A DNA stretch of 64,000 nucleotides from assembly GCA_020832305.1 (NCBI GenBank), contig JAFIEV010000046.1:1-64000 (forward strand), in the 5' to 3' direction. This stretch comes from Cyclobacteriaceae bacterium (GTDB lineage Bacteria; Bacteroidota; Bacteroidia; Cytophagales; Cyclobacteriaceae). The notes beneath the pieces are model-generated. The model was not told the DNA's origin. It was given only the letters and a program-made list of their open reading frames with translations, and searched no databases. Position 1 is the first letter of the stretch; every line of letters starts with the position of its first letter. This document shows positions 47,771-64,000 of the stretch, piece by piece. Position numbers and translations under genes: made by a program.

Positions 47771-48661
47771 ATGGAAAGTAGGTATAGGAGTTTGTCATTA
47801 TTCGAATTTCAGGAGCGTTTTCTTACCTCTGATAAATGTTAAGAATATCTTTCGGAACTGAAATGGAGCAAGGGACACAAATGTTAAAAATGTAATCATG
47901 AACATTATTATCAAGTCCACAATAAATACGACAGCCAATGCTCACGATGCAGACACATAGAGTCACCAACTTCTGGCAACCTCTTTCATAAGCTAAAATT
48001 TCCAATATTAAAGGCTTTCTATACAGTATACTATGTTTCTACCTCCAAAAGTGGCATTAGTTCTATAGAATTAAGTCGCAAATTAGAGTTAAGACAGAAA
48101 ACATGTCGGATTTTTAAGCAAAAGGTTGTGAAAGCCATGGAAAGCAGCAAGACAAACTTAATGATAAGTAAAGTAGATGTAGATGAAACCTGCGTTGGCA
48201 GCCAGGATGATAGCTCTATTGATCGTAAAGAAGGTAAGAAAAGGATTATGGTGGTGGCCGTTGAGCGGAAAGGTAAATGGGTTTCAAAGGTTTACGGAAA
48301 AGTCATAAAAATAGCTTCCAGGAAGAATTTGCAAAATTTTATTCAGGAACATATTTGTAACAAGGCAGAGATAAGAACCGAAGGCTGGAAGGGTTACCTG
48401 GGATTGGAAGAAGAATTTTGCAATCTGGCAAAAGAAAAATCAGGCAAGAAAGGCGAAAACTTTCCATAATTGCATCGGGTAATAATGATGTTCAAAGCAT
48501 AGTTGAGGAGTATTCATCACTCAGTAAAACATTTACAGGTTTATATTAATGAATATACATATCGCTAGAACAGACATAAAATGAAAGAAGGCATCTTCGA
48601 AAATCTGATTGATAGAATGATTGACCGACCTCCCTATACATATGAAATGATAATAAGTTAA
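47771..48661 (+). pseudogene. IS1595-family (ISXO2-like) transposase, decayed
   Basis: One frame from ATG 47771 to TAA 48659-48661 (about 296 codons) reads as an IS1595-type transposase. It has FEFQERFLTSDKC and LSELKWSKGHKC with a degenerate zinc-finger region, the catalytic start VDVDETCVG, RTEGWKGYLGLEEEF, LRSIHHSVKHLQVYINEYTY and ENLIDRMIDRPPY. Five in-frame stops interrupt it (after SDKC, after GHKC, after GENFP, after MMFKA and after EYTYR) but there is no frameshift. The longest intact piece is 113 codons at 48128-48469. It marks the end of the polysaccharide locus and is inactive as read. Confidence 0.75.
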
Positions 48662-49245
48662 TAGCCTGGTTCAATTATATTATTAACTTCTGACTAATAC
48701 CTTAATGTAAAGTAAATATAAAAAAATTATTCAATTTAATTCGATTATTAAAATACTTTTCTTTAAAATAAAATTTAAAGGATTATAAATATTACAAAGA
48801 TACGATATAAAATATGCCAAAAAGTTTTTAAAATTAGTTCAATTGGTATTATGAAAAGGATATATATGTTTTTAACTGCTTACTTTTAGGAAAAGTAGTG
48901 TAGTTAAACATTCAGTTAATTGTCTTAGAATTGAAGTTAATGACTGAAATAAATTGAAACTCATACCCTCATATAATGAGACGCGATAGTGTAATTAATA
49001 TTCAGATGGCATGTTTGTAAGCTCTGTCCGGGCTTAACGATAGTAAAACTATTTCCAATTGCCCAATCTGGTAGTGCTGAAAATTAGTAAGGCACAAAAA
49101 ATAATCTCCCCCCCCGTAATCGATTACGTAAATTATTCTGTAAACCAAAAGGAAAATAGGGCTTGCGTTTATTAATTTAGTGTATCGCTAAGCAGACTTT
49201 GCTTCGCGCATTGCTACTAAATCCAAAACCTGTAAACCCTGATTG
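48662..49245. other. AT-rich noncoding stretch upstream of the apiosidase-type genes
   Basis: No credible gene. The stretch 48662-48980 is very AT-rich. The last part holds the LacI-type operator at 49115-49128, preceded by a run of C residues, and should contain the promoter for the hydrolase pair. Confidence 0.5.
49115..49128. promoter_or_regulatory. LacI-type operator, site 1
   Basis: CGTAATCGATTACG is a perfect 14-bp palindrome with the central CG typical of LacI/GalR operators. It lies 118 bp upstream of ATG 49246. The identical 14-mer occurs at 55640-55653 beside the lacI-type gene, strongly suggesting one regulon. Confidence 0.78.
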
Positions 49246-50712
49246 ATGAAACAACCTGCCCTTTCAATACTTGCCACCTTTATGTACGCATGCAGCTTCT
49301 CGCTGTTTATTTCCTGCGAAAGTAAAAAGCCTGAAGTTCCTTCCACAACCTATATTGATGTGGATGAACGATCTCCATGGTATTGGAATTACAAAGGGAA
49401 AACCCTGGTTCTGCTGGGGGGAAGCTGGCAGGACAATATGTTTAACCACCCTACCGGCCTTAAAGACCACCTCGATGTAATGCTTTCCGTGGGCGCCAAC
49501 TACATCCGCAATACCATGAGCCATAGAAATGTAGGCAATGTATTTGCCTATGAAAAAAATACCGATGGCCTTTTCGATCTCAATCACTTCAACAAAGAAT
49601 ACTGGCAGCGATATTCAAATTTCCTCGAACTTACCTACCAGCGCGATATTATTGTTCAACTCGAAATATGGGACCCGTGGGATATGTATGAAGACCATCA
49701 GTCCTTTGGAGGATGGTCGCATCATCCACTCAACCCGGCCAATAATGTAAATTATTCCACAGCATCTTCGGGCCTTCCTGAAATCATCGATTATCCACCC
49801 GTAGGCAGGCCAACCGGGCATCCCTTCTTCAAAACTTTACCCGAAATGGATAATAATGAAATACTGCTTTCGCATCAAAAGGCTTATATGGACACACTTT
49901 TATCCATCTCGCTTAATTATCCGCATATTTTATATTGTGTGCATAATGAAACGGGAGAAAATGTAGCATTTGGTGACTTTTGGGCAGATTTTATCCGTCA
50001 AAAGGCAAATGAGAAAGGGGTTAAAGTGCATGTAACAGATATGCGCCGCAATGAAAATGTACGCAGTGAAGACCAGAACCACCTGTACAACCAACCCGAT
50101 CGCTATTCTTTTATCGACATCTCTCAGAATAATGCCTGGGAGGGGCTGGGCCAGAAGCATTATGACAATATTTTATATGTAAAGGATCGTATTTCTTCAC
50201 ATCCCCGCCCTATTAATCACAACAAAAACTATGGCGCTGTACGGCATGGTGAAGAGGAATCGGTGGCCCGGATGGGCAGAATGATATTTGCCGGAGCTGC
50301 AAGCGCCCGTTTTCACCGGCCACATCCAATGGAAGATCCGGCATTTATGTACGAAAAGACAGAATTTGGACTGGGCCTGAGTCCCCGGGCACAAAAGATC
50401 ATAACATCTCTCCGGATGGTGACGGATGAACTGGATTTGGCCCTGGTATCACCACAAAATGAGCTCCTGGTAGACAGGGATGAAAATGAAGCCTATCTAC
50501 TGGCTGAACCTGATAAACAATACGCAATATACTTTCCGGACGGTGGCTCGGTAAGCCTCGAATTATCCAAAGATAAAAATGATTGGATGCTGCGATGGAT
50601 CAACCTGGATGAAGCCGCTTGGAAAGAAGCGATTCTGCTGGAATCACAAAATTTTACCGAAATCACGACTCCCGCACAAGGGCATTGGATAGCATTAATA
50701 CGTAAAAAATGA
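49246..50712 (+). CDS. Putative glycoside hydrolase lipoprotein (TIM barrel with collagen-binding-like C-terminus)
   Basis: Translation is taken from ATG 49246 (a TTG precedes it in frame). The 488-aa product has a lipoprotein signal (FMYACSFSLFISCESK). The barrel includes VLLGGSWQDNMFN, GANYIRNTM, IIVQLEIWDPWDMYEDH and ILYCVHNETGEN, whose Glu sits like an acid/base. The C-terminal YAIYFPDGGSVSLELSKDK segment resembles the putative collagen-binding domain found at the end of DUF4038 proteins. I do not recognise the exact family. It overlaps the next hydrolase by 4 bp (ATGA) and lies behind a LacI-type operator, so a role in releasing apiose-containing oligosaccharides is inferred. Confidence 0.78.
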   Translation: MKQPALSILATFMYACSFSLFISCESKKPEVPSTTYIDVDERSPWYWNYKGKTLVLLGGSWQDNMFNHPTGLKDHLDVMLSVGANYIRNTMSHRNVGNVFAYEKNTDGLFDLNHFNKEYWQRYSNFLELTYQRDIIVQLEIWDPWDMYEDHQSFGGWSHHPLNPANNVNYSTASSGLPEIIDYPPVGRPTGHPFFKTLPEMDNNEILLSHQKAYMDTLLSISLNYPHILYCVHNETGENVAFGDFWADFIRQKANEKGVKVHVTDMRRNENVRSEDQNHLYNQPDRYSFIDISQNNAWEGLGQKHYDNILYVKDRISSHPRPINHNKNYGAVRHGEEESVARMGRMIFAGAASARFHRPHPMEDPAFMYEKTEFGLGLSPRAQKIITSLRMVTDELDLALVSPQNELLVDRDENEAYLLAEPDKQYAIYFPDGGSVSLELSKDKNDWMLRWINLDEAAWKEAILLESQNFTEITTPAQGHWIALIRKK

Positions 50713-52358
50713 AAAAGCATTGGTTTTTATTTATCACAGCGCTTATCGTTACAGGCGCTTGTACCCGCGGAACGGAAAAGGATGCCGTAGTCGCCGAACA
50801 ATGGTCTGAAATCAGCATCGAATTGCTGTCTGAAATGGATTATGCCAATCCCTATACCGATGTTGAGGTGTACGCCTTATTTACCCATGAATCGCATGGA
50901 AAAATCCGCAGACCAGCCTTCTGGGATGGAGGTAATTCCTGGAAGGTGCGGTTTGCTTCTCCGGTAAGTGAAGGCAGCTGGCAATGGGAAAGTTTTAGCA
51001 GCGAAGCCAGCGATAAAGGATTGCATGGCCGCAAAGGGAAGCTCGAATCTGCTGCTTATTCCGGAGACAACCACTTGATAGCAAATGGGCTGCTACGCAT
51101 GTCCCCTGGCAAACGCAATGCGGTGCATGCCAATGGCAAACCTTTTTTCGTAATTGGCGATACCCCATGGGCATTGCCATGGAGGGCTACCCATGAGGAT
51201 GTCAAAGTATATGCAGCAGACAGACAGTCAAAGGGTTTTAATGCCGCCTTGCTTATGTCTTTTTGTCCGGATACAGAAGCACAGGGACCTGATGCCAGGG
51301 CAACCTTACAGGGTTTTGCCAGGGCTTTTGAAGATATTGAAGAAGGGCATATCAATAAACCTGTCATTTCTTATTTTCAATATTTTGACCAACTGGTTGA
51401 TGTGCTGATTGCGCATGGCATAGTACCGGTATACCAGCCCATTTTTCACGGGTATGGATGGAAGGGGCTGAAAGTGCTTGGCTGGGATACCCAACCTGAA
51501 GAATACGAACGATACATGAAATATCTGATTGCCCGCTATGGAGCCCGTCCTGCCTTTTGGCTTGTTGGTGGGGATGGAGATGGCAGGTCTGCCGGGATAA
51601 TGGAAGCAGGTAAAATAACCCAACAGTGGGACGATTATCAGCAACCCACCGGAATACATTATAACCCTTTTGATACTCCGTCTGAAGGACATCCCAATAG
51701 ATATCCACATGAAAATAAAACGTATCAGGATGAGACATGGCTGGATTTTCAATGGTGCCAGACGGGGCATGGCGGAGAACACCAGTTTTACAAAGTAGAA
51801 AAAATGTACGACAACCTGCCTGTAAAAGCAGTGGCCAATGGTGAGCCTACCTACGAAGGCATTCGGGATCCTGAAAACGGTGCAGGTTGGTGGCAGGGAC
51901 ACGAAGCATGGGGACAGTTTACCAGTGGAGGTACTATGGGTGTGGTTTATGGTGCCGGTGGCATCTGGCAGTGGAAAATAAGTGCCGAGGAAGAAGGATG
52001 GCCTGCCTGGGCCAATTCGGAGATCTCCTGGAGGGATGCCCTGCATCTCGAAGGAAGTACTTATGTGGGGTATATGAAAGAAGCATTGCACGGCCTCGAT
52101 ATTAAGGATATTGAAAAACGACATGACCTGGCCGGAGGCAAGCTCTGTCTGGCAAAAGCCGGTAAAACTTATCTGGTCTATCTCCCGGAAGGAGGCGAAG
52201 TGCAATTGCAGGACCTGGTCAACGGTCTGCCATTTGTCTGGTTTAATCCAAAAACGGCTGAATTTACCGAAAAGGGTTCTGTTGGTGCTTCATCTCAGAC
52301 CTTTACCGCACCAGACAAAGCACCCTGGGTGCTGATCATCGGATCGCGGGAATTGTAG
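50709..52358 (+). CDS. Apiosidase-like glycoside hydrolase lipoprotein (DUF5060-DUF4038)
   Basis: This 549-aa protein has a lipobox signal (LFITALIVTGACTRG). Residues ~30-120 are a DUF5060 beta-domain (NPYTDVEVYALFTHESHGKI). DUF4038 follows: HANGKPFFVIGDTPWALPWR, the AFWLVGGDGDGR segment (Asp289) and VANGEPTYEGI (Glu379/Glu383), which match the putative acid/base and nucleophile regions of GH140 apiosidase-type enzymes. A collagen-binding-like C-terminus ends the protein (KTYLVYLPEGGEVQLQ). Known GH140 members cut the galacturonic acid-apiose linkage in rhamnogalacturonan II. Co-regulation with a D-apiose catabolic operon (shared operator) makes this substrate likely here. GH140 membership itself is not proven. 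Confidence 0.83.
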   Translation: MKKHWFLFITALIVTGACTRGTEKDAVVAEQWSEISIELLSEMDYANPYTDVEVYALFTHESHGKIRRPAFWDGGNSWKVRFASPVSEGSWQWESFSSEASDKGLHGRKGKLESAAYSGDNHLIANGLLRMSPGKRNAVHANGKPFFVIGDTPWALPWRATHEDVKVYAADRQSKGFNAALLMSFCPDTEAQGPDARATLQGFARAFEDIEEGHINKPVISYFQYFDQLVDVLIAHGIVPVYQPIFHGYGWKGLKVLGWDTQPEEYERYMKYLIARYGARPAFWLVGGDGDGRSAGIMEAGKITQQWDDYQQPTGIHYNPFDTPSEGHPNRYPHENKTYQDETWLDFQWCQTGHGGEHQFYKVEKMYDNLPVKAVANGEPTYEGIRDPENGAGWWQGHEAWGQFTSGGTMGVVYGAGGIWQWKISAEEEGWPAWANSEISWRDALHLEGSTYVGYMKEALHGLDIKDIEKRHDLAGGKLCLAKAGKTYLVYLPEGGEVQLQDLVNGLPFVWFNPKTAEFTEKGSVGASSQTFTAPDKAPWVLIIGSREL

Positions 52359-52610: not shown

Positions 52611-53702
52611 TTAATTAAACAAATCAATTTTTTGTCTGAAACCATTGCCAATATGAAATGGGATGAGTTTTAAATGTTGCAACCTGCCTATGATTACACC
52701 TGCCGGAGTTCTGAATTTATTGGCAAAATCATGTATCATTTCTTCATTGAACGGAGCTGCTTCTATGATTTGTTGCAATTCATTTTCTGTCAATAAAATT
52801 TTAGCTGCAAAAGCATTGGCTTCTTCTTCTTTCTCCTGGTTTATTTCAGTTCCTTCTACATTTTCTAAGAAAATGTCTTTTTTACCATGCAAAATGATGT
52901 GTGCTGCTTCGTGAAAAAAGGTAAACCAAAAATGGTCGTTGGTTCTAAATCTGCCTGAAAGTTGAATGATAGGTTTGTTATGAAACCAACGCGTGGCACC
53001 GCTAATTGGAGCTTTCGGCAGGTTCTGAGTAAACACTATTGCAACCCCACATTTAGCACAGATATTTTGCAATTGATGGGTGAAATCATCAGGCATCGTA
53101 AAAGCCAGATCCTTTATTTCTGTTAAGGCAACTTTGAATTTCTTTTTATCAAACTCCGCCATATCAATTTCTTTGGCTTGTATTTCCCCTTTTCGTAACC
53201 ATGCAGAAATGGCATGAGGACTTTTAGTATGAGCTAAAGAAACTCTAAACGCTACTGAAACTTCTTCGTCAATGTAAATGCGCTCCCATTCTTTTGTGTT
53301 TGCCACACAAAAGAATTTCAGCAAACTGTCCACCAAAACGTGTTTTTCTTTTGTGTTGGGCAGCCAACCCAATTTTCTCATTTCATTTACAGGAAAAGCT
53401 TTTAACCAATCTTGTTTCTTTTCAAGCTCCTCTTGTCGTTGAAGTTCATACAATTCCTTTCTGTAAGACTTTTCACTATTTAACCAAAAGCCAGATGGTA
53501 TCCCAAGTACATTTTCTAATTGAAAAGCTGTGGGTACAGTAATGGGTTCTCTGCCTTTTATCAAGTCGTTTATCTTTTCTTTGGGTCTTCCCATTCTTTC
53601 TGCAAGTTCAGCTTGGCTCATGCCAATAAAATCTATATGCTCCTGAATTGTATCTCCAGGAGGAGAGAGTAAAGATTTTGCTATTTCAAGTGTAGTTGCC
53701 AT
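52611..53702 (-). CDS. HigA-like antitoxin fused to ImmA/IrrE metallopeptidase domain
   Basis: In this 363-aa protein, residues ~18-75 are an XRE/HigA helix-turn-helix (MSQAELAERMGRPKEKINDL, IKGREPITVPTAFQLENVLG). Residues ~215-320 are an ImmA/IrrE zinc-peptidase domain with HEAAH (His264-His268) and a downstream Glu-rich helix (EEEANAFAAKILL). Normal HigA is about 90-110 aa, so this is the long fused form. It lies 22 bp downstream of a HigB/RelE-like toxin gene, the toxin-first order of higBA. Expected roles are repression of the operon and neutralisation of the toxin; the peptidase part might link it to damage or phage signals. Confidence 0.87.
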   Translation of the reverse strand: MATTLEIAKSLLSPPGDTIQEHIDFIGMSQAELAERMGRPKEKINDLIKGREPITVPTAFQLENVLGIPSGFWLNSEKSYRKELYELQRQEELEKKQDWLKAFPVNEMRKLGWLPNTKEKHVLVDSLLKFFCVANTKEWERIYIDEEVSVAFRVSLAHTKSPHAISAWLRKGEIQAKEIDMAEFDKKKFKVALTEIKDLAFTMPDDFTHQLQNICAKCGVAIVFTQNLPKAPISGATRWFHNKPIIQLSGRFRTNDHFWFTFFHEAAHIILHGKKDIFLENVEGTEINQEKEEEANAFAAKILLTENELQQIIEAAPFNEEMIHDFANKFRTPAGVIIGRLQHLKLIPFHIGNGFRQKIDLFN

Positions 53703-53724
53703 GTTGTAGGTTTTATTCTGTTAG

Positions 53725-54075
53725 TTAATGGTAGTCTTCAATTTCTTTAATTTGAATTTTGGTGACATCTTCCCAATTCAAACCACCATCGTCTTTTTTG
53801 GGTGTTGGGTCGTGGAGTGGCTCAAAAATCATTCGATAGTTGCCAGAAACATCTACTGCTAATTCACCTTTACGGTTGCCTGTCAGTTCGTGGCATCTCG
53901 CAGCCGGAATGGTTCTCATAATCGCTAAATTGTCTGCATCCTTAAGGTTTTTTAAGCGCATTTTTATCTTTACTGCCAACTGTCCAAAGGATTTTGCCAT
54001 CTCCTTTGGGTCGGTTAGTTGCTTTTCGAGTTTTCGGCTTTTGTAACTTACTTCCACTGCAAATATAAATAGCAT
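53725..54075 (-). CDS. HigB/RelE-family toxin
   Basis: A small basic protein with YKSRKLEKQLTDPKEMAKSF, ARCHELTGNRKGELAVDVSG and NYRMIFEPLHDP, as in the killer/RelE-like toxins that cleave mRNA on the ribosome. The longest frame starts at ATG 54075 (116 aa). A GTG at 54057 would give VEVSYKSRKLE, closer to the usual family N-terminus, and would place the inverted repeat at 54074-54092 just upstream of the start. The downstream partner is the HigA-ImmA/IrrE antitoxin. Intact by eye. Confidence 0.82.
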   Translation of the reverse strand: MLFIFAVEVSYKSRKLEKQLTDPKEMAKSFGQLAVKIKMRLKNLKDADNLAIMRTIPAARCHELTGNRKGELAVDVSGNYRMIFEPLHDPTPKKDDGGLNWEDVTKIQIKEIEDYH

Positions 54076-54527: not shown

Positions 54528-55544
54528 CTACCCTTTAACCAGTACAGGCAGTGTGCTTCCCCTTTCAACGATATGGGTTTCAAAAACGAATGACCGGCTT
54601 TGCATCTTCTGCCCCTTGATCAGTCCCAGCAATTGAAGGGCTGCTTCTCTGCCCATTTCAAAGGATGGTTGTGAAACCGAACTCAAAGACGGGTATAACC
54701 AGGGCGATATCGATTCATTGTTAAATCCCATCACGGCAATATCCTGTGGTACGCTTTTGCCTGCATCCCGAATGGCTGCCAGGGCCTCAATCGCGATCCG
54801 GTCATTAATGGAAAAAACAGCATCGATGGCAGGCTTTTCTTGAATGGTTTGCCTGAGTCTATGGTAGGGATCACCCGGCTTAAAATGGAAGTGAATTTTA
54901 AGCTGGGGATCTATGCTCGTTTCTGCCTCCTGATGCGCCCTGCAATAGCCACGGTAGCGCCTTTCCGCTATATCGAGCCCTTCGGGTCCGGCCAGCCAGG
55001 CAATGTGTTTTCTCCCCGATTGCAGTAAATGCTGCACGCCCTTGTAAGCTGCATCTTCATTGTCGATATGAATGCGAATGAAGCGGTCATCTATGGGTAC
55101 CCGGTCGATAAAAACCAGGGGCATTTGCAGGTCTTGAAAATGGTCCAGCTGAAGGGTTTCAGCCGATAATGAGGCAATCAGACCATCCACCCTTATGGAT
55201 ACCAGGTCTTTCAGGTTTTCAATCTCCCTGTCCAGCTTTTCATGGGTCTGGCATATGATGGTTCTGTAGCCTTGAGCACCCAGCACCTCTTCTATTCCGG
55301 CTATAGCACTTGAATTAAAGTGGTAGGCAATGTTGGGTACCAGTATGCCAATCATTTTATTTCTTTTACTTCTCAATCCGCTCGCCATGCGGTTGGGCTG
55401 ATAATTTAATTGCCGGGCAAGAGCCCTTACTTTTTCCTTGGTCGATTCGCTGATTTCATAAGAATCATTCAGTGCCCTGGAAACGGTTGCCGGTGTCAGG
55501 TCCAGGGCTTTGGCAATATCGTATATGGTAACCTTCTGCGCCAA
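54528..55544 (-). CDS. LacI-family transcriptional regulator
   Basis: This 338-aa protein has an N-terminal LacI helix-turn-helix (VTIYDIAKALDLTPATVSRA, LNDSYEISESTKEKVRALAR) with the hinge helix YQPNRMASGLR. A periplasmic-binding-protein-like effector domain follows (IGILVPNIAYHFNSSAIAGI; FIDRVPIDDRFIRIHIDNED; AWLAGPEGLDIAERRYRGY). It is transcribed divergently from the sugar-catabolic operon at 55779. A perfect LacI-type palindrome lies 96 bp upstream of its start and is repeated in front of the hydrolase pair at 49246. It probably represses both units until apiose or a pathway intermediate binds. Confidence 0.93.
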   Translation of the reverse strand: MAQKVTIYDIAKALDLTPATVSRALNDSYEISESTKEKVRALARQLNYQPNRMASGLRSKRNKMIGILVPNIAYHFNSSAIAGIEEVLGAQGYRTIICQTHEKLDREIENLKDLVSIRVDGLIASLSAETLQLDHFQDLQMPLVFIDRVPIDDRFIRIHIDNEDAAYKGVQHLLQSGRKHIAWLAGPEGLDIAERRYRGYCRAHQEAETSIDPQLKIHFHFKPGDPYHRLRQTIQEKPAIDAVFSINDRIAIEALAAIRDAGKSVPQDIAVMGFNNESISPWLYPSLSSVSQPSFEMGREAALQLLGLIKGQKMQSRSFVFETHIVERGSTLPVLVKG

Positions 55545-55639: not shown

Positions 55640-55653
55640 CGTAATCGATTACG
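55640..55653. promoter_or_regulatory. LacI-type operator, site 2
   Basis: CGTAATCGATTACG, identical to site 1 at 49115-49128, lies between the divergent lacI-type gene (start 55544) and the oxidoreductase gene (start 55779). The position suits control of both directions, including autoregulation. Confidence 0.8.
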
Positions 55654-55778: not shown

Positions 55779-56807
55779 ATGAAAAAATTGAGATTTGCCG
55801 TGATGGGATGTGGCTTCTGGAGCAATTTTCAGATCCCTGGCTGGCTCGAATCTGATGAGGTGGAATTGGTGGCCTTGTACAACCGAACCCTTGCGAAAGC
55901 CGAAAAAGTGGGTGAAAGGTTCGGCGTTCAACGCATTTACGACGATCCGGAAGCCCTTATGGCTAATGAGGAGCTCGATTTTATCGATATCATCACCGAT
56001 GTAGATACCCACTTGAAGTTTACAGAAATGGCGGCACAGAAAGGCGTGCATGTCGTCTGTCAGAAGCCCATGGCCGCCAATTATGAAGATGCCCGAAAAC
56101 TGGTGGAAGTGTGCAAAAAACATCATGTGCAATTGTTTATCAATGAAAACTTCCGTTGGCAGGCACCCATCCGAAAATTAAAGCAATACATCGACAGCGG
56201 CGTGATTGGCCGACCCTTTAAGGGCAGGGTAAGCTTTTGTTCTGGTTTTCCCGTATTCGATAACCAGCCTTTTTTAAAGGAACTTGACCGCTTTATTCTT
56301 ACCGATGTGGGCTCCCATATTCTGGACATATGTCGCTTTCTTTTTGGCGAAGCGATCACCCTGCAGTGCCTTACCCAAAGGGTAAATCCCCAAATCAAAG
56401 GCGAAGATGTGGCAAATGTATTTATGCTGATGGAAAATGGTGTGCACTGCTATGCGGAGATGTCCTATGCCAGCATTCTGGAAAAAGAATTATTTCCGCA
56501 AACGCTGGTGCTTGTGGAAGGAGAGAAAGGAAGCATTCACCTTACGGCAGATTATGAAATAAGGATAAGCACCCGGGCGGGTACCCAAAGCGAAATCGTT
56601 AAGCCCGTGTTATATGACTGGATCGATCCTGAATATGCTGTTGTTCATAGCAGCATCGTAGGCGCTCAGATGGATATTTTGAAAGGATTGCAGGGAGGGC
56701 CCTGTGAAACCACAGGAGATGATAATTTCAACACGGTCAGACTGGTTTGGGCATCCTATTACAGTGCCGATCATAATTGTATGGTGAAAATGGAAGATTT
56801 TATATAG
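55779..56807 (+). CDS. apsD: Gfo/Idh/MocA oxidoreductase, probable D-apiose dehydrogenase
   Basis: In this 342-aa protein, the NAD-binding Rossmann part begins LRFAVMGCGFWSNFQIPGW. The Gfo/Idh catalytic lysine is in VVCQKPMA (equivalent of EKP). The segment NFRWQAPIRKLKQYIDSGVI, followed by FKGRVSF and FILTDVGSHILDICRFLFGE, resembles D-apiose dehydrogenases (ApsD) as I recall them. Those oxidise D-apiose to D-apionolactone with NAD. It heads an operon with the RuBisCO-like protein, kinase and oxidoisomerase homologues of the published D-apiose pathways (Carter and co-workers), which is the main reason for the specific call. The family is certain; the substrate is inferred. Confidence 0.72.
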   Translation: MKKLRFAVMGCGFWSNFQIPGWLESDEVELVALYNRTLAKAEKVGERFGVQRIYDDPEALMANEELDFIDIITDVDTHLKFTEMAAQKGVHVVCQKPMAANYEDARKLVEVCKKHHVQLFINENFRWQAPIRKLKQYIDSGVIGRPFKGRVSFCSGFPVFDNQPFLKELDRFILTDVGSHILDICRFLFGEAITLQCLTQRVNPQIKGEDVANVFMLMENGVHCYAEMSYASILEKELFPQTLVLVEGEKGSIHLTADYEIRISTRAGTQSEIVKPVLYDWIDPEYAVVHSSIVGAQMDILKGLQGGPCETTGDDNFNTVRLVWASYYSADHNCMVKMEDFI

Positions 56808-58064
56808 ATGGCAAGGAATTTAAAAGCAACATATCTTATAGAAACATCTATGCCTCCGGAAAAGGCAGCTGAAATTATGGCCGGGGAGCAATCCAGTGGC
56901 ACTTTTATCAAGGTGCCTGGCGAGACCGCCGAACTCAAGGAAAGGTCGGCGGCCCGAATAGAAAGCCTGCAAATTATTGGGGAAGTAGAAGCTCCATCAT
57001 TGCCCGGCGCTAAAAGAATTAAAGACCGACCCATTCAAAGGGCCCTGGTTACGTTGAACTGGCCTTTTGAAAATGTAGGAGCCAATCTGTCCAATCTTTG
57101 CGCTACCGTTGCCGGCAATTTGTACGAGCTAAGTCCTTTTTCAGGCTTAAAGCTCCTGGATATTGAAATTCCGCAAGAATTTGCATCTTTATATAAAGGT
57201 CCGAAGTTTGGCATCAGTGGTACGCGTTCATTGTGCAATGTGTATGAACGACCTGTCATTGGCACCATAATAAAGCCTTCTGTAGGTCTTAGCCCAAAGG
57301 ATACGGCACAGCAGGTTAAGACCTTAATCGAAGCAGGCCTCGATTTTATCAAAGATGATGAGCTTATGGGGGATCCGCCGCACTGTCCTTTTGATCAAAG
57401 GGTAGAAGAAGTCATGAAGGTAATCAACCGGCATGCCGACAAAACCGGAAAAAAGGTCATGTATGCCTTCAATATAAGCGGTGATCTTGATGATATGTTT
57501 CGACGACACGATTGGGTACTGAAACAGGGAGGAACATGTATTATGTTAAGCCTTAACTGGGTAGGCATTTCCGCAACGGCAAAGATATCTTCTCATACAC
57601 AGGTTCCCATACACGGTCACCGAAATGGATGGGGGGTTTTTAACCGGAGCGAAGTACTGGGGATGGAATTTTCTGCCTATCAGAAAATATGGAGACTGGC
57701 AGGGGCAGACCATTTGCATACCAATGGCATCCGTAATAAATTTTGTGAATCAGATGAATCGGTTATTCGCTCGGTAAAAGCATGCCTGGCGCCTATGTTT
57801 GGAGGTTACCAGGCGATGCCGGTGATTTCTTCCGGGCAATGGGCAGGTCAGGCGCCGGATACCTATAAGGCCATAGAAAGCACCGACCTAATGTATGTGT
57901 GCGGAGGAGGTATTGTAGCCCATCCGTCCGGCATTGCCGCCGGTGTTAGAAGTGTGCAACAAGCCTGGCAGGCAGCCATTGAAGGTAAAACCCTCGAGGA
58001 GTATGCGCTTCAGCATGCTGAATTAAAACAAGCACTCGATTTTTATGGCAAGGTCAATTCTTGA
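56808..58064 (+). CDS. RuBisCO-like protein, probable 3-oxo-isoapionate-4-phosphate decarboxylase or transcarboxylase/hydrolase
   Basis: This 418-aa RuBisCO large-subunit homologue follows the dehydrogenase with no gap. The catalytic KDDE block is intact: Lys182 (the carbamylated residue in RuBisCO), Asp184 and Glu185 (metal ligands). IKPSVGLS keeps the first active-site Lys but has Ser in place of the second. HGHRNGWG, DHLHTNGI, SSGQWAGQ and CGGGIVAHPSG correspond to the His294/327 and phosphate-binding regions. It is not a photosynthetic enzyme: loop-6 and N-terminal residues differ. D-apiose pathways use such proteins either to decarboxylate 3-oxo-isoapionate 4-phosphate (OiaX) or to split it to 3-phosphoglycerate and glycolate (OiaT). 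Which one applies cannot be read directly. Confidence 0.82.
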   Translation: MARNLKATYLIETSMPPEKAAEIMAGEQSSGTFIKVPGETAELKERSAARIESLQIIGEVEAPSLPGAKRIKDRPIQRALVTLNWPFENVGANLSNLCATVAGNLYELSPFSGLKLLDIEIPQEFASLYKGPKFGISGTRSLCNVYERPVIGTIIKPSVGLSPKDTAQQVKTLIEAGLDFIKDDELMGDPPHCPFDQRVEEVMKVINRHADKTGKKVMYAFNISGDLDDMFRRHDWVLKQGGTCIMLSLNWVGISATAKISSHTQVPIHGHRNGWGVFNRSEVLGMEFSAYQKIWRLAGADHLHTNGIRNKFCESDESVIRSVKACLAPMFGGYQAMPVISSGQWAGQAPDTYKAIESTDLMYVCGGGIVAHPSGIAAGVRSVQQAWQAAIEGKTLEEYALQHAELKQALDFYGKVNS

Positions 58065-59457
58065 ACAGGAAATATTGCTGAGCTATTATGGTGACGACTT
58101 TACCGGTTCTACCGATGTGATGGAGTCATTGACCATGAATGGCATTCCGGCCGCTATGTTCCTTCACCCGCCATCGAAGGAGGAAGTGATGGATTTTCGA
58201 CTGAAAAATCCTATGGGCCAGGAAAAAATAAAAGCATTTGGAGTGGCAGGCATCTCACGAAGCCTGAGCCCGTTAGCTATGGAAGAAGAACTGCCCGGCA
58301 TTTTTGAAGCCATCAGCCGGATTTCTGCCGATTTTTTTCAATACAAGGTCTGCTCAACCTTCGACAGTTCACCTGAAATTGGCAGCATTGGACTGGCATC
58401 GGAAATAGCCCTGAGGTATTTCCCGGCCGAATGTATACCACTTGTCATAGGATCTCCCTTTCTCAACCGCTTTGTGGCTTTCGGCAACCTTTTTGCCCGG
58501 GTAGCGCGAAAGACCTACCGGCTCGACAGGCACCCCACCATGAGTCGTCATCCGGTAACGCCTATGCGGGAAAGTGACCTTCGCCTCCATCTGGCACAGC
58601 AAACAAACCGCGATATCGCACTTATGGATATACACGCTTTGCAGGGAGAATACGGGCCTCCGACTGAGGTTTACCAAAGTCTGATTGAAAAACACAGCGG
58701 TTTTGTTTTGTTCGATACCCTGGATATCAATCATCTGCTAAGCATCGGTACATTGCTCATCGAGCATAAAAGGAAAGGCACGCAATTGTTGGTGGGCTCA
58801 TCTGGGGTAAACTATGCCCTCGCGTTTTATTTGCAAAAAATGGGTAAAATTCAGCCGCCAGAAGCCACAATGTCTCCTGGCAAGGCCCGAAAAATGGCTG
58901 TGATTGCCGGCAGCTGCTCACCTACAACCGCAGCACAAATTAATTATATGATAAAATCGGGCCATCAGGGCATACCCATCGATACCGAAAAGATCACCCA
59001 TCAGGAAGATAAGTCCTCCTATCAGATGACGCTGATACAAGAAGCCCAAAGGGCTATGGATGCCGGTAAAGTGCCCCTTTTTTACACGGCCCTTGGGCCG
59101 GAGGACCCTGTCATACAACAGACCCGTGAATCTCTGAAACGGCGGGGTTGGGGTGAAAAACGCATTGGTCAGGCCCTGGCAGAGGCTATGGGAAGTTTTG
59201 CCCTGAAGTTAATGGAAACCACCGGTCGCATACGCCTCGTGGTGGCTGGCGGTGATACCTCGGGATATGTTGCCAGGTCGCTTGGGATCAACGCACTTGA
59301 AATACTGTGCCCGATAGCGCCAGGCGCACCCCTCTGCCTGGCCCACTCGCATGACAGCCGCTTTGATGGTATGGAAATATCCCTGAAAGGGGGACAAAAC
59401 GGCAATGAGAAATATTTTGAATCGATTTTAGAAGGTAAGTTATTGAATGGACAATAA
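58045..59457 (+). CDS. oiaK: Four-carbon-acid sugar kinase family (DUF1537), probable 3-oxo-isoapionate kinase
   Basis: In this 470-aa protein, the N-terminal sugar-binding domain has YYGDDFTGSTDVMESL, the hallmark of the OtnK/DUF1537 family. The C-terminal nucleotide-binding domain has VIAGSCSPTTAAQI and RLVVAGGDTSGYVARSLGI. The start overlaps the RuBisCO-like gene by 20 bp, indicating translational coupling. In D-apiose pathways the homologue (OiaK) phosphorylates 3-oxo-isoapionate to give the substrate of the RuBisCO-like protein, exactly the pair found here. Other family members act on four-carbon sugar acids, so the specificity rests on context. Confidence 0.78.
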   Translation: MARSILEQEILLSYYGDDFTGSTDVMESLTMNGIPAAMFLHPPSKEEVMDFRLKNPMGQEKIKAFGVAGISRSLSPLAMEEELPGIFEAISRISADFFQYKVCSTFDSSPEIGSIGLASEIALRYFPAECIPLVIGSPFLNRFVAFGNLFARVARKTYRLDRHPTMSRHPVTPMRESDLRLHLAQQTNRDIALMDIHALQGEYGPPTEVYQSLIEKHSGFVLFDTLDINHLLSIGTLLIEHKRKGTQLLVGSSGVNYALAFYLQKMGKIQPPEATMSPGKARKMAVIAGSCSPTTAAQINYMIKSGHQGIPIDTEKITHQEDKSSYQMTLIQEAQRAMDAGKVPLFYTALGPEDPVIQQTRESLKRRGWGEKRIGQALAEAMGSFALKLMETTGRIRLVVAGGDTSGYVARSLGINALEILCPIAPGAPLCLAHSHDSRFDGMEISLKGGQNGNEKYFESILEGKLLNGQ

Positions 59458-59469
59458 AAATATTGAACT

Positions 59470-60297
59470 ATGGCAAAGGTAACCTTAATTGGCGCCGGTG
59501 GTAAAATGGGCGTCAGACTCACCAAAAATCTGAAAAATTCAGATTATGAAATGTACTACCTCGAAGTAAGCGAGGCCGGACTGGCCAGGATGAAAGAAGC
59601 CGGGGTGGAGGCATCTAAACCGGAAGATGTCATTCCCGTTTCTGATGCTGTGATTTTTGCCGTCCCCGATATTTATATCAAAAAAGTAGCGAATGAATAT
59701 GTGCCCATTATGAAAAAAGGCGCCATGGGGGTATGCCTCGATCCGGCGGCTCCGCTGGCAGGGGCATTGCCCGGGCGCGAAGATATTGCTTATTTCGCAA
59801 GTCACCCCTCACACCCTTCAGTTTTTAACTGGGAACCGGTAGAGGCCAATCATTTCGATTTTTTCGGAGGCATAGCGGCACGACAAACCATCGTTTGCGC
59901 CTTGATTCAGGGCGATGAAAAATACTACGATTTGGGTGAAAATCTCGCTAAAACCATGTATGCGCCCGTAACGGTATCACACCGCATTACGCTGCGGGAT
60001 ATGGGCATTCTCGAGCCCGCATTGTCAGAAACTTTTTGCGGTGCCCTCATCACCAAAATGAAAGAAGCTGTGGACATTGTGGTAGAAAAAGGCGTACCCA
60101 AAGAGGCTGCCTATGATTTTTTCCTGGGACATATCAACATCGAACTGGCACTGCTCTTTGGCAAATTGCCGGGCGGACAGTTTTCAGATGCCGCCAAAAA
60201 AGCCATAAAAATCGGTGAAGAGCTTATCTTCAAAGATACCTGGAAGGATATATTCGAAGACAAATCGGTAGAAGAACAAATCAGGGCGATTACTTAA
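59470..60297 (+). CDS. apnO: Phosphogluconate-dehydrogenase-like protein, probable D-apionate oxidoisomerase
   Basis: In this 275-aa protein, the N-terminus VTLIGAGGKMGVRLTKNLKN is an NAD-binding motif. VIFAVPDIYIKKVANEYVPI, LDPAAPLAGALPGREDI, FASHPSHPSVFNWE and FFGGIAARQTIVCAL follow, then a helical C-terminal domain (MYAPVTVSHRITLRDMGILE). This pattern matches D-apionate oxidoisomerase (ApnO) as I know it. That enzyme oxidises D-apionate and migrates a hydroxymethyl group to form 3-oxo-isoapionate. It starts 12 bp after the kinase gene, in the same operon. Confidence 0.76.
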   Translation: MAKVTLIGAGGKMGVRLTKNLKNSDYEMYYLEVSEAGLARMKEAGVEASKPEDVIPVSDAVIFAVPDIYIKKVANEYVPIMKKGAMGVCLDPAAPLAGALPGREDIAYFASHPSHPSVFNWEPVEANHFDFFGGIAARQTIVCALIQGDEKYYDLGENLAKTMYAPVTVSHRITLRDMGILEPALSETFCGALITKMKEAVDIVVEKGVPKEAAYDFFLGHINIELALLFGKLPGGQFSDAAKKAIKIGEELIFKDTWKDIFEDKSVEEQIRAIT

Positions 60298-60414
60298 TGA
60301 TTCTTTAGCAGAATTATTGTAAAGCATATAAGGAGAAGATTGGATATCAAAATTGCTTCTGTTAATTTAGGATCTTGTGAAGGTGTTGAAACAGAAATAA
60401 TTTAATAAGCTATA

Positions 60415-61827
60415 ATGAAATTCAAATATGTTATTTCATTTTGCATAATATGCACCTTGCTTAATGAGGGTGTCAGAGCTGAAAACAAACCCAGGATTAT
60501 TGTGCTTTCAGACATCAGCGGGCTGCAGGAGCCTGATGACACCCAGTCATTTATCAGGTTTCTCCTTTATTCTAACGAATTTGAGGTTGAAGGCATCGTA
60601 GGAACTGGTTCAAAATATGGACCGACCAGGGGTGATATTGCTTATTTTAAAAAAATAATTGATGCCTTTGGGCAGGTACGGAATAACCTGTTGCTGCATG
60701 CCGATGGATACCCTACCGCGGCGCATTTAACATCGGTATTGCGACACGGTCAGCGGAGCACAGTGGGTATGGAGGGAGTTGGCAATGGAAAAAATACAGA
60801 GGGATCTGATTTAATCATCGAAGCGCTTCGCAAAGACGATCCACGCCCTTTATGGCTATCAATCTGGGGCGCAACAGGCACCCTGGCTCAGGCACTTTGG
60901 GACATAAAGCATAATATGGGCCTGAAAGATGCTGAAATAGACCGACTGATCTCAAAAATAAGAGTTTACGATATTGCAGGCCAGGATGATGCCGGCGGAT
61001 GGATAGCAAAAAACTTTCCTGATATCTTTTACATCCGTTCATCGGTTCAGTTTCTTGGTTTTACCCAGGGTCATGTTGCTGCTTCACAGGGAGGAGACCT
61101 TTCGGTCGCCAATGATGAATGGTTCAACGAAAACATTATGGGCTATGGACCCCTGGGTGCTTTGTATCCAAAAAGGAAATGGATGTATGAAGGAGATACG
61201 CCTTCCTTTCTGTATCTGCTTTCCAACGGGCTTTCAGACCCTGAATGTGTGTATTGCGGTGGATGGGGAGGACGCTTCAGAAAAGATAAGGTTAAAAATG
61301 CCAATGAATTCAGCCATACCAAGGTTGATGAGTCGGCATATTATGATTTCTTCATCTATAATGATGCTTATGACAACTGGAACTATCAGGGGATAGAATA
61401 CAATGATGTTTACTGTCCATTGTTCAGGTGGAGGGAAGATTATCAAAATGACTTCCTTGCCCGATTGCATTGGACAATGCTGCCATTCAACAAGGCAAAC
61501 CACAATCCTGTTGCCATTGTAAACAACGATAAATCTAAAAATTTTATAATCAAACAAATTGCAGTTGGTGAGCAAGTTGCTCTGGATGCTTCAGGATCAT
61601 ACGATCCGGATGGTGACAACCTCTCATTCGAATGGTTTTATTACCCGGAAGCAGGCACATACAAAGGGGAGATACAGATAAAGGATGCTGATTCGCCAAA
61701 TGCACTTGTTCGGGTTCCAGATGATGCATCAGGGACCGAAATGCACATCATTCTCAGGGTAAAAGACTACGGCACGCCGGGTCTTTTCGCTTACCGGCGA
61801 ATAATTATTCAGGCAAAGGACAAGTAG
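60415..61827 (+). CDS. Secreted DUF1593 (Sde182-type nucleoside-hydrolase-like) protein
   Basis: This 470-aa protein has a signal peptide (ISFCIICTLLNEGVRAE). RIIVLSDISGLQEPDDTQSF and LLYSNEFEVEGIVGTGS are the start of the DUF1593 family, which has a nucleoside-hydrolase fold with an altered Asp cluster. The C-terminal ~80 residues form an Ig/PKD-like domain (LDASGSYDPDGDNLSFEWFY). Family members occur in cellulose- and pectin-degrading bacteria, and one was described as cellulose-binding, but the reaction is unknown. It lies 117 bp after apnO on the same strand and may be part of the apiose regulon, perhaps cutting an N- or O-glycosidic bond of an exported substrate. Confidence 0.78.
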   Translation: MKFKYVISFCIICTLLNEGVRAENKPRIIVLSDISGLQEPDDTQSFIRFLLYSNEFEVEGIVGTGSKYGPTRGDIAYFKKIIDAFGQVRNNLLLHADGYPTAAHLTSVLRHGQRSTVGMEGVGNGKNTEGSDLIIEALRKDDPRPLWLSIWGATGTLAQALWDIKHNMGLKDAEIDRLISKIRVYDIAGQDDAGGWIAKNFPDIFYIRSSVQFLGFTQGHVAASQGGDLSVANDEWFNENIMGYGPLGALYPKRKWMYEGDTPSFLYLLSNGLSDPECVYCGGWGGRFRKDKVKNANEFSHTKVDESAYYDFFIYNDAYDNWNYQGIEYNDVYCPLFRWREDYQNDFLARLHWTMLPFNKANHNPVAIVNNDKSKNFIIKQIAVGEQVALDASGSYDPDGDNLSFEWFYYPEAGTYKGEIQIKDADSPNALVRVPDDASGTEMHIILRVKDYGTPGLFAYRRIIIQAKDK

Positions 61828-61844
61828 TAATTGATAAATCATAT

Positions 61845-62549
61845 ATGAAAGTAGCGCTTTTTATACCTTGTTACATCAATCAGCTTTATCCGCAGGTAGG
61901 CATAGCCACCTATAGGCTCCTGCAACAGCTGGGTTTCGATGTGCATTATCCCATAGATCAAACCTGCTGTGGTCAGCCGTTGGGAAATTCAGGCTTCGAG
62001 ACTAACACCGGCAAAGCCTTACAGCATTTTGAAAAAGTTTTTAAGGGATATGACTGCATTGTGGCGCCATCAGCCAGTTGCGTTTTGTATGTAAAAGAGC
62101 ATCATGACAACCCGGGTAATGTACTTGAACTATCTGAATTTTTACTTAGGTATGTAGATTTGTCGACCCTGGAGCTTTCATATAAAGCAAGGGTAGGCAT
62201 CCTTTCCAGCTGCCATGGATTGAGAGGGCTTGAGCTGGCCAAGCCTTCTGAGTTGGTGCTGGAGCGGGTTTCAACACTTAAGTCCATTCTTTCACATATT
62301 CAACAACTTGAGCTCATTGAATTGGACCGACCAGATGATTGTTGTGGCTTTGGCGGCACCTTCAGTATCAAAGAACCGGAACTTTCGGTTAAAATGGGAT
62401 GCGACAGACTCGATGATTTTGTCAAAAACAAGGCTGAAATCATTACAGGTACGGATGTCTCTTGTCTGATGCACCTCGATGGGATCATTCGCCATCAAAA
62501 ATTGCCGCTTCAGGTTAAACATTTTGCAGAATTATTGAATCCGATATGA
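61845..62549 (+). CDS. lutA: LutA-type (Fe-S)-binding oxidase subunit
   Basis: This 234-aa protein has two CCG domains: DQTCCGQPLGNSG (Cys41-Cys42) and DDCCGFGGTFS (Cys166-Cys167), as in LutA/LldE. The N-terminal FIPCYINQLYPQVG is also conserved. With LutB and LutC it forms the iron-sulfur L-lactate dehydrogenase, and the CCG domain is shared with glycolate-oxidase and heterodisulfide-reductase subunits. It starts 17 bp after the DUF1593 gene and overlaps lutB by 4 bp. In this operon it could instead oxidise glycolate released from D-apiose degradation (see findings). Confidence 0.88.
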   Translation: MKVALFIPCYINQLYPQVGIATYRLLQQLGFDVHYPIDQTCCGQPLGNSGFETNTGKALQHFEKVFKGYDCIVAPSASCVLYVKEHHDNPGNVLELSEFLLRYVDLSTLELSYKARVGILSSCHGLRGLELAKPSELVLERVSTLKSILSHIQQLELIELDRPDDCCGFGGTFSIKEPELSVKMGCDRLDDFVKNKAEIITGTDVSCLMHLDGIIRHQKLPLQVKHFAELLNPI

Positions 62550-63892
62550 AGGGACATCCACAGCAGTCAATAGAATTTTTAAAAAATGAAGGCCGGGTCA
62601 ACTGGCATGACGAGACTTTGTGGTGGGTACGACAGCGTCGGGATAACGCTGCGCATGGTCTTACGGAGTGGGAACGTCTGCGTGAAAAAGCCTCGGAAAT
62701 CAAGGATTATACCCTGAGCCACCTCGATGAATTATTGCTTAACTTCGAAGAAAAAGCCATACAAAATGGCATTAGGGTGCATTGGGCAGGCGATGCAAAG
62801 GAACACAACCAGATAGTGCACCGCATACTGAAAGAAAAAAAGATAGACTTTGTGGTCAAAAGTAAGTCGATGCTCACCGAAGAATGCGGATTGAATCATT
62901 TTCTCGAAGAGCAAGGGATTGAAGTAATTGATACAGATTTGGGAGAACGCATTGTTCAGTGGATGCAACAGAAGCCCAGTCACATCGTTTTGCCAGCCAT
63001 TCATTTAAAGAAAGGGGATATTGGTGCGGTCTTTACAGAAAAGCTGGGCCTGCCCCAAACCAATGATGCCCAGGTACTAACTGAGGCAGCGCGACAGGAT
63101 ATGCGGAAATACTTCGTCGCTTCAAAAGTGGCTTTAACGGGCGTTAATTTTGGCCTGGCAAAAGAAGGAGCTTTTGTGGTCTGTACCAACGAGGGAAACG
63201 CAGATATGGGCGTTCATATTGCCGATGTACACATTGCCAGTATGGGAATAGAAAAACTAATCCCAAAGCAAGAGCATCTTGGCGTTTTTCTTCGACTCCT
63301 GGCGCGATCCGCTACCGGTCAGCCCATTACTACCTATTCTTCGCATTTCAGGTCACCCTCGCCGGGGAAGGAAATCCACCTGATTCTCGTGGATAATGGC
63401 CGTTCAGCCATCCTTGGTAAGCCCGATTTCAGGTCTTCATTAAAATGCATACGTTGCGGTGCATGTATGAATACCTGTCCGGTTTTCAGAAAAACAGGGG
63501 GCCATAGCTATGAATCGGTAATTCCCGGTCCGATTGGCGCCATTTTATCGCCCCATAAAGACCCGGTGAGATACAAAAGCCTTCCTTTTGCCTCCTCCCT
63601 CTGTGGTTCGTGCACCGCGGTATGTCCGGTGAAAATTGACATCGACAAGCAGTTGTATTTGTGGCGGCAGGAATTGTCGAAAAAGGACAACATGGGTCGC
63701 GCCGCCCATTTTCTGGCGGGAGAGATCCTGGCCAGTCCATCGTGGTTTAACTTTGGAAGCCGGAGCTTTTATTTCTTCCATAAAAAATTCCCTGCTTTGG
63801 TCAATCGGCTGCTCAAGCCCTTTACCGGGAAAAGACCCTTGCCGGAGGCAGCCCCGCAAACATTCAGAGAATGGTATAAGAAAAACGCATGA
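62546..63892 (+). CDS. lutB: LutB-type LUD-domain 4Fe-4S protein
   Basis: This 448-aa protein has a LUD domain (~70-290; SMLTEECGLNHFLEEQGIEV, ALTGVNFGLAKEGAFVVCTN, EGN) followed by two 4Fe-4S motifs. These are CIRCGACMNTCP (Cys301, 304, 307, 311) and CGSCTAVCP (Cys353, 356, 360), with a C-terminal DUF3390-like helix region (RQELSKKDNMGRAAHFL). It passes electrons from the 2-hydroxy-acid oxidising centre. It is coupled by ATGA overlaps to lutA before it and lutC after it. Confidence 0.9.
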   Translation: MKGHPQQSIEFLKNEGRVNWHDETLWWVRQRRDNAAHGLTEWERLREKASEIKDYTLSHLDELLLNFEEKAIQNGIRVHWAGDAKEHNQIVHRILKEKKIDFVVKSKSMLTEECGLNHFLEEQGIEVIDTDLGERIVQWMQQKPSHIVLPAIHLKKGDIGAVFTEKLGLPQTNDAQVLTEAARQDMRKYFVASKVALTGVNFGLAKEGAFVVCTNEGNADMGVHIADVHIASMGIEKLIPKQEHLGVFLRLLARSATGQPITTYSSHFRSPSPGKEIHLILVDNGRSAILGKPDFRSSLKCIRCGACMNTCPVFRKTGGHSYESVIPGPIGAILSPHKDPVRYKSLPFASSLCGSCTAVCPVKIDIDKQLYLWRQELSKKDNMGRAAHFLAGEILASPSWFNFGSRSFYFFHKKFPALVNRLLKPFTGKRPLPEAAPQTFREWYKKNA

Positions 63893-64000
63893 ACAGCAGA
63901 AAAGAAATATTATCCAGAATTCAGAAAAATAAACCGGAAGCCAAAGCTATGCCTGTCGGATTTACGGGTATGAGCTCCTATACCTTCAATGATTTTTTGC
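63889..64000 (+). CDS. lutC: LutC-type LUD-domain protein, partial at window end
   Basis: ATG at 63889 overlaps the lutB stop by 4 bp. The 37 visible codons (MNSRKEILSRIQKNKPEAKA, then MPVGFTGMSSYTFNDFL) fit the N-terminus of LutC/YkgG. The rest is outside the window. The call rests on gene order and this short sequence. Confidence 0.7.
   Translation, partial: MNSRKEILSRIQKNKPEAKAMPVGFTGMSSYTFNDFL

Follow-up and report, generated by a model that had tools for sequence, protein, structure and literature searches.

A stretch of 64,000 nucleotides from a Cyclobacteriaceae bacterium (the window; positions 1 to 64000 of contig C1 in genome G000, which comprises 6.48 Mb in 89 contigs and is 98.8% complete) ends in a run of genes that we read as an operon for D-apiose degradation under a local LacI repressor, in which a RuBisCO-like protein (RLP) of the OiaT type would release glycolate and the LutABC complex would oxidise it. 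We put the probability of this reading, which is drawn from sequence, at roughly 0.6. In the proposed pathway, apiosidase-like enzymes that share the operator would free apiose, ApsD would oxidise it and ApnL, encoded elsewhere in the genome, would carry out the delactonisation; ApnO would then form 3-oxo-isoapionate and OiaK would phosphorylate it. The RLP would split 3-oxo-isoapionate 4-phosphate in the manner of OiaT into 3-phosphoglycerate, which would enter lower glycolysis, and glycolate, which LutABC would convert to glyoxylate while passing the electrons to the respiratory chain.

From position 55779 onwards, all genes of the unit lie on the + strand. They encode an ApsD-like Gfo/Idh/MocA oxidoreductase resembling D-apiose dehydrogenase (55779..56807; Pfam Gfo/Idh; 42% identical to a Microvirga protein encoded beside ApnL), the RLP (56808..58064; PF00016, 253 bits), which we propose to be a 3-oxo-isoapionate-4-phosphate transcarboxylase/hydrolase, an OiaK-like four-carbon acid sugar kinase (58045..59457), an ApnO-like apionate oxidoisomerase (59470..60297; PGDH_C, 195 bits; 44% identical to a Microvirga protein), a nucleoside-hydrolase-like protein of the Pfam family DUF1593/Sde182 that appears by eye to be secreted (60415..61827), LutA (61845..62549), LutB (62546..63892) and LutC (63889..64470 on C1, or L003:890-1471, so that the window cuts the gene at 64000). 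The three lut genes overlap one another and have the domain architecture of LutABC: two CCG domains in LutA, a LUD domain and a dicluster 4Fe-4S domain in LutB (TIGR00273, 403 bits against a cut-off of 444.8), and a LUD domain in LutC. The gene coordinates confirm the first-pass annotation in placing lutA, lutB and the start of lutC behind the apiose genes on the same strand, and its spacing is also correct, with gaps of 117 bp (60298-60414) and 17 bp (61828-61844) around the DUF1593 gene and 4-bp LutA/LutB and LutB/LutC overlaps. That annotation covered 56808-64000; the ApsD-like gene and a divergent gene for a LacI-family regulator (54528..55544, - strand; Pfam LacI and Peripla_BP_3), just 5' of its range, belong to the apiose unit as well.

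The chemistry of the RLP decides whether glycolate would be formed at all. OiaT yields 3-phosphoglycerate and glycolate; the OiaX branch proceeds via two isomerases. A D-apiose pathway with OiaT was reportedly described by Carter et al. in 2018 from Xanthobacter autotrophicus. In the accessible part of a second-hand account, OiaX decarboxylation is assigned to Agrobacterium radiobacter K84 and OiaT transcarboxylation/hydrolysis to Xanthobacter autotrophicus (PMC6302742). Against the NCBIfam OiaX model NF042437, which has a cut-off of 700, the window RLP scored 481, a Rhizobium OiaX 785 and a Microvirga RLP 453, and the window RLP shared 61% identity with this Microvirga protein and 45% with the Rhizobium OiaX. 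In a tree of 125 sequences built with a quick method, one branch (SH-aLRT 98) separated five OiaX-annotated proteins and 19 proteins of another Bacteroidota group from 101 sequences that included those of the window, Microvirga and Ancylobacter. The window RLP groups with Microvirga and with Ancylobacter, a member of Xanthobacteraceae, the family of Xanthobacter, in a comparison made with these proteins and not with the Xanthobacter OiaT reference itself. At 22 diagnostic positions, defined by one residue common to the five OiaX proteins and another present in at least 90% of the 101 sequences on the other side, the window RLP carried the non-OiaX residue 22 times out of 22, although these positions partly mark common descent because only five OiaX sequences define them. 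They include H302 and H304 (glutamine in OiaX). By eye, these two residues correspond to the RuBisCO histidine pair before loop 6. RLPs were found in 8 of 395 genomes in a sample of the phylum, that of the window included, and the other seven all fell on the OiaX side of the tree.

A rival reading is that the RLP is an OiaX-type decarboxylase whose erythrulose 1-phosphate is taken up by unrecognised isomerases, with Lut unrelated to the pathway. The OiaX model is indeed the best NCBIfam match of the RLP, yet at 481/700 it falls far below the cut-off, and both the tree and the 22 residues point the other way. The isomerases themselves argue in the same direction. The first-pass annotation had seen no erythrulose-phosphate isomerase gene. 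Genome-wide, RpiB (PF02502), a family present in 7 of 14 control genomes, was not found anywhere in G000, which has one triose-phosphate isomerase (TPI), leaving the known OiaX branch without a visible exit. Nor did a TPI or RpiB gene appear on C1 between the end of the window and position 82999, where five proteins were scanned with Pfam and the rest were judged by eye. Other isomerase folds do occur in the genome, for instance a xylose-isomerase-like TIM-barrel protein (AP_endonuc_2; C1:76479-77375) 12 kb behind lutC, but this protein looks exported. Among the OiaX-annotated loci that we examined (5 of 11 rows), just two (L060 and L159) had adjacent isomerase genes, namely TPI and RpiB genes after OiaK, a point in favour of the OiaX reading. 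Such genes were absent from all 80 named loci on the window side of the tree, the top 80 among 538 for a query led by the Microvirga RLP, and from all 25 loci of the family. A pyruvate kinase gene was present in 4 of 126 RLP loci (L061, L064, L112 and L144), together with an enolase gene in one of them (L064), and such neighbours fit a 3-phosphoglycerate product. Taken together, we regard the OiaX alternative as improbable and are fairly confident that the RLP has OiaT-type chemistry, as the first-pass annotation had proposed: the clade, the diagnostic residues and the lack of RpiB in the genome support it well, if indirectly, and from them we infer the reaction itself.

A second case, in another genus of the family, bears on whether the position of lut is meaningful. 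Contig C350 of genome G085 has an ApnL-like gene (query residues 192-634) that shares 4 bp with the lutA behind it; lutA overlaps lutB by the same length, and lutC comes next. Contig C108 of the same genome carries ApsD, an apiosidase-like gene, the RLP, OiaK and ApnO, and breaks off within ApnL (residues 1-132). The two ApnL fragments are complementary and do not overlap, which makes an operon running ApsD...RLP-OiaK-ApnO-ApnL-LutABC and split by an assembly gap the most likely arrangement; G085 thus probably carries the same apiose-lut linkage as the window. In a tree built from LutA plus LutB of 21 loci, the partner of the window is genome G158 (100/100) and that of G085 is genome G130 (86/81), and a sisterhood of window and G085 was rejected at a p-AU of 6.6e-07, in a test for which this clade had been chosen after the first LutB tree was seen. 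Since the LutAB pairs of the two genomes do not group together, two separate origins of the linkage are probable. We consider it an even bet that apiose operons have, at least twice and independently, recruited LutABC to their ends as a portable 2-hydroxy-acid oxidase, which would serve there as an iron-sulfur glycolate dehydrogenase that completes the OiaT branch.

This second linkage also bears on whether the DUF1593 gene with lutABC, or lutABC alone, forms a separate transcription unit that lies behind the apiose genes by chance. That possibility draws on the 117-bp gap and the unrelated DUF1593 protein between the two halves, on two promoter-like matches (10/12) at 61333-61399 inside the DUF1593 gene and a terminator-like match at 61786-61801 near its end, and on the lack of lut in any other readable apiose cluster. 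However, promoter-like sites (23 against 20.0 expected) and terminator-like sites (15 against 12.5 expected) over the region are at chance level, the 117-bp gap holds no terminator-like site on the + strand, and the lut genes of G085 belong to another lineage and directly overlap ApnL. We therefore hold a separate unit to be improbable.

The candidate operator is a perfect 14-bp palindrome, CGTAATCGATTACG, at 55640..55653 between the LacI gene and the ApsD-like gene. A second copy (49115..49128) lies upstream of an apiosidase-like pair (49243-52358, + strand), the first gene of which (49243..50712) has a signal-like start by eye and weak matches to DUF6298 and Collagen_bind_2, both below the Pfam cut-offs, and the second of which (50709..52358) encodes an apiosidase-like glycosidase (PF13204, 217 bits). 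Allowing up to two mismatches, these two exact copies are the only matches in the window, where 0.02 would be expected, and none lies in front of the DUF1593 gene or lutA. The 12-bp core of the palindrome was found in 6 of 274 loci, all of them copies of the window locus or the LacI/ApsD gap of the relative G130 (L041:11308-11319). The simplest reading of this arrangement is a single LacI-controlled unit from ApsD to LutC, with a shared transcript predicted from the layout.

Glycolate is the sole 2-hydroxy acid expected from the apiose operon. The strongest competing idea accepts that OiaT chemistry may hold and has LutABC oxidise L-lactate from plant-polymer sugars that arrive together with apiose, such as rhamnose and fucose, and explains its place behind the apiose genes solely by this joint arrival. 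Lut is an established L-lactate system in the accessible parts of three papers (PMC4117512, PMC13411273, PMC9701030), lldEFG is known from rhamnose regulons, where it carries L-lactate on to pyruvate according to the part of the source available (PMC3870299), and G000, with its one lut cluster, would need that cluster for lactate as well. We read lut regions in 20 of the 80 other LutB-positive genomes, a selection that favoured high scores and took in the apiose genomes. Five of these regions (L193, L195, L204, L209 and L210) have genes for a RhaI-type isomerase, an FGGY kinase and RhaEW close to lut, the families having been identified on the L195 proteins: these genes adjoin lut in L193 and L195, stand one gene off in L210, and in L204 and L209 are divergent from it with a single gene in between. 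In G130, lut lies behind fuconolactonase-like (262/400) and 2,4-didehydro-3-deoxy-rhamnonate-hydrolase-like (367/500) genes, both below the NCBIfam cut-offs, which are presumably its source of L-lactate. Apart from L191 and L197, described below, the remaining lut regions had no clear partner. The apiose operon itself, however, holds no recognisable lactate-yielding gene set. A whole-genome search for RhaEW, run on 21 genomes (the carriers of a window-side RLP together with G101, G158, G098 and G110), found an ortholog of at least 61% identity in 17 and none in G000, G085, G130 and G158, in a search that was confined to RhaEW among the routes to L-lactate. The four genomes that lack it have lut in another operon, in two cases the apiose one. 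On this evidence we judge the L-lactate explanation unlikely, with a real chance of being right, and consider that LutABC on balance probably oxidises glycolate, a prediction from genomic context.

Several observations weigh against the glycolate reading. The E. coli homologue YkgEFG is an L-lactate dehydrogenase in vivo, as stated in the accessible part of PMC9701030. Contig C22 of G000 encodes a distant RhaEW-like protein (29% identity; NCBIfam RhaD_aldol-ADH 264/568) clustered with a kinase and dehydrogenases; given this protein and the restriction of the search to RhaEW, G000 may possess a source of L-lactate. A LutB match is present in 81 of the 196 genomes of the family, with no clear enrichment among those with a window-side apiose cluster (10 of 17, against 71 of 179 others; G101, which has RLP fragments only, was left out of the count). 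The seven apiose genomes without a LutB match are G046, G188, G144 and G109 in one genus and G071, G124 and G175 in another. Lut was absent from all 11 other window-side clusters of the family that could be read for at least 3.5 kb past the last pathway gene. The G085 assembly, in about 560 contigs, reaches 87% completeness; its operon was pieced together over a contig break, and its Lut forms a long branch. No residue signature is common to the two apiose-linked Luts, which share one departure in LutA and none in LutB or LutC. The DUF1593 gene, with the promoter- and terminator-like matches it contains, sits between the ApnO-like gene and lutA. Finally, three of the five OiaX-annotated loci (L156-L158) also lack an adjacent TPI or RpiB gene in the stretch read, as the window does. 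The idea that Lut oxidises glycolate, which came from the first-pass annotation, has thus gained a second, apparently independent linkage and the lack of a RhaEW ortholog in both genomes concerned, while the apiose genomes without LutB and the clusters without lut speak against it as a general rule. The second linkage and the absences across the genome make it more plausible than it was from the window alone.

The wider distribution of lut and of glycolate genes gives context to these counts. The lut genes form the sole LUD-domain cluster of G000, and the sole FAD-oxidase_C protein of this genome resembles the D-2-hydroxyglutarate dehydrogenase YdiJ (623/1350 bits), so that no separate GlcD was seen there. 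Beside other RLP loci, lut was absent from all 80 named ones, from all 25 of the family (15 on the window side, 7 in a second RLP group and 3 distant) and from each of 7 plasmid loci. Of the 15 family loci on the window side, four break off within 1 kb of the last pathway gene, among them that of G085, which appears to continue on the lut-bearing contig. Near the 80 named RLP loci, genes for GlcD (2), GlcE (1), GlcG (1), Hyi (4) and GlxR-family proteins (10) were found, and none for GlcF, GlcB, GlcA or Gcl. Elsewhere, a GlcA-like permease and a GlcD-like gene lie near lut in L197. In L191 (G158:C46), the closest relative of the window Lut in the trees, lutABC stands behind genes for a UxaA-like dehydratase, an SDR protein and a DctP-type binding protein.

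The remaining pathway proteins are recognised with differing certainty. OiaK reaches 430/700 bits in its NCBIfam model; the ApnO-like protein, with PGDH_C, and the ApsD-like protein, with Gfo/Idh, had no equivalog model among their matches, and the neighbours are as in Microvirga. The ApnL-like apionate lactonase gene is absent from the operon and was found on contig C71 (67422-69380, - strand; L071:9423-11381), with an NF049900 score of 300 bits, below the 750 required (the Microvirga protein scores 899), and no copy of the palindrome was found near it at up to three mismatches. Unlike G000, most of the relatives read keep ApnL inside the operon. The DUF1593/Sde182 protein had no relative among the 112 other RLP loci compared and is possibly an alternative apioside-cleaving enzyme.

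A second group of Bacteroidota RLPs lies near OiaX in the tree (L034-L040 and L247-L258). L034-L040 have RLP and OiaK-like genes without ApnO or ApnL, and in L036 these are followed by a protein weakly like Asp/Glu racemases (19 bits, cut-off 93) and a PanS-like transporter (198/400); this group perhaps serves a pathway for another branched acid. L064, a haloarchaeal plasmid, carries RLP, OiaK-like, ApnO-like, pyruvate kinase and enolase genes, so that RLP sugar-acid pathways reach the archaea.

Directly behind lutC, on the - strand, lies a gene for an HbpS/GlcG-like protein (C1:64755-65381, or L003:1756-2382; PF03928, 125 bits), followed by a sulfatase gene; glcG of E. coli is part of the glycolate operon. 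The gene types of G000 include a SusC/SusD pair and sulfatases and resemble those of Bacteroidota. A pair of genes that look HigA/IrrE-like and HigB/RelE-like by eye occupies 52611-54075 on the - strand, in the interval from the apiosidase genes to that of the LacI regulator, and upstream of the apiosidase pair a short + strand open reading frame (48128-48469) has by eye the look of a transposase fragment.

To our knowledge, how LutABC catalyses its reaction and which substrates it accepts are poorly understood. A literature search found no link of apiose with Lut; in the accessible text of papers on lutABC/lldEFG that mention glycolate, it is nowhere named as a Lut substrate, and in the text accessible on the OiaT branch we found no fate assigned to its glycolate. 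The locus is a new combination of known parts, and what is new in our reading is the proposal that glycolate naturally serves LutABC as a substrate. If this is true, a widespread 'lactate' system gains a second natural substrate, and bacteria without GlcDEF become recognisable as glycolate oxidisers; the operon renders both the substrate range of LutABC and the fate of OiaT-branch glycolate testable.

Relative to the OiaT pathway of Xanthobacter autotrophicus, the operon has the same set of ApsD-, ApnO-, OiaK- and RLP-type genes, an RLP on the Xanthobacteraceae (Ancylobacter) side of a tree without the OiaT reference sequence, and likewise no isomerase genes, but differs in having ApnL outside the operon, a LacI-type regulator and a terminal lutABC. 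With the OiaX pathway (Rhizobium; NF042437) it would share the upstream steps, and the RLPs are 45% identical, whereas the RLP of the window falls below the model cut-off and departs from OiaX at every diagnostic position, in a genome with no RpiB and one TPI. As far as the accessible descriptions of LutABC, LldEFG and YkgEFG extend (PMC4117512, PMC4481167, PMC9701030), the domains are the same (two CCG; LUD with dicluster; LUD), and where those systems oxidise L-lactate the operon context here predicts glycolate instead. A parallel in organisation, from the part of PMC3870299 available, is the rhamnose regulon with lldEFG: there too a Lut module is joined to the breakdown of a sugar with a 2-hydroxy acid among its products, which in that case is L-lactate formed via RhaEW, an enzyme without an ortholog in the window genome, and in the apiose operon would be glycolate.

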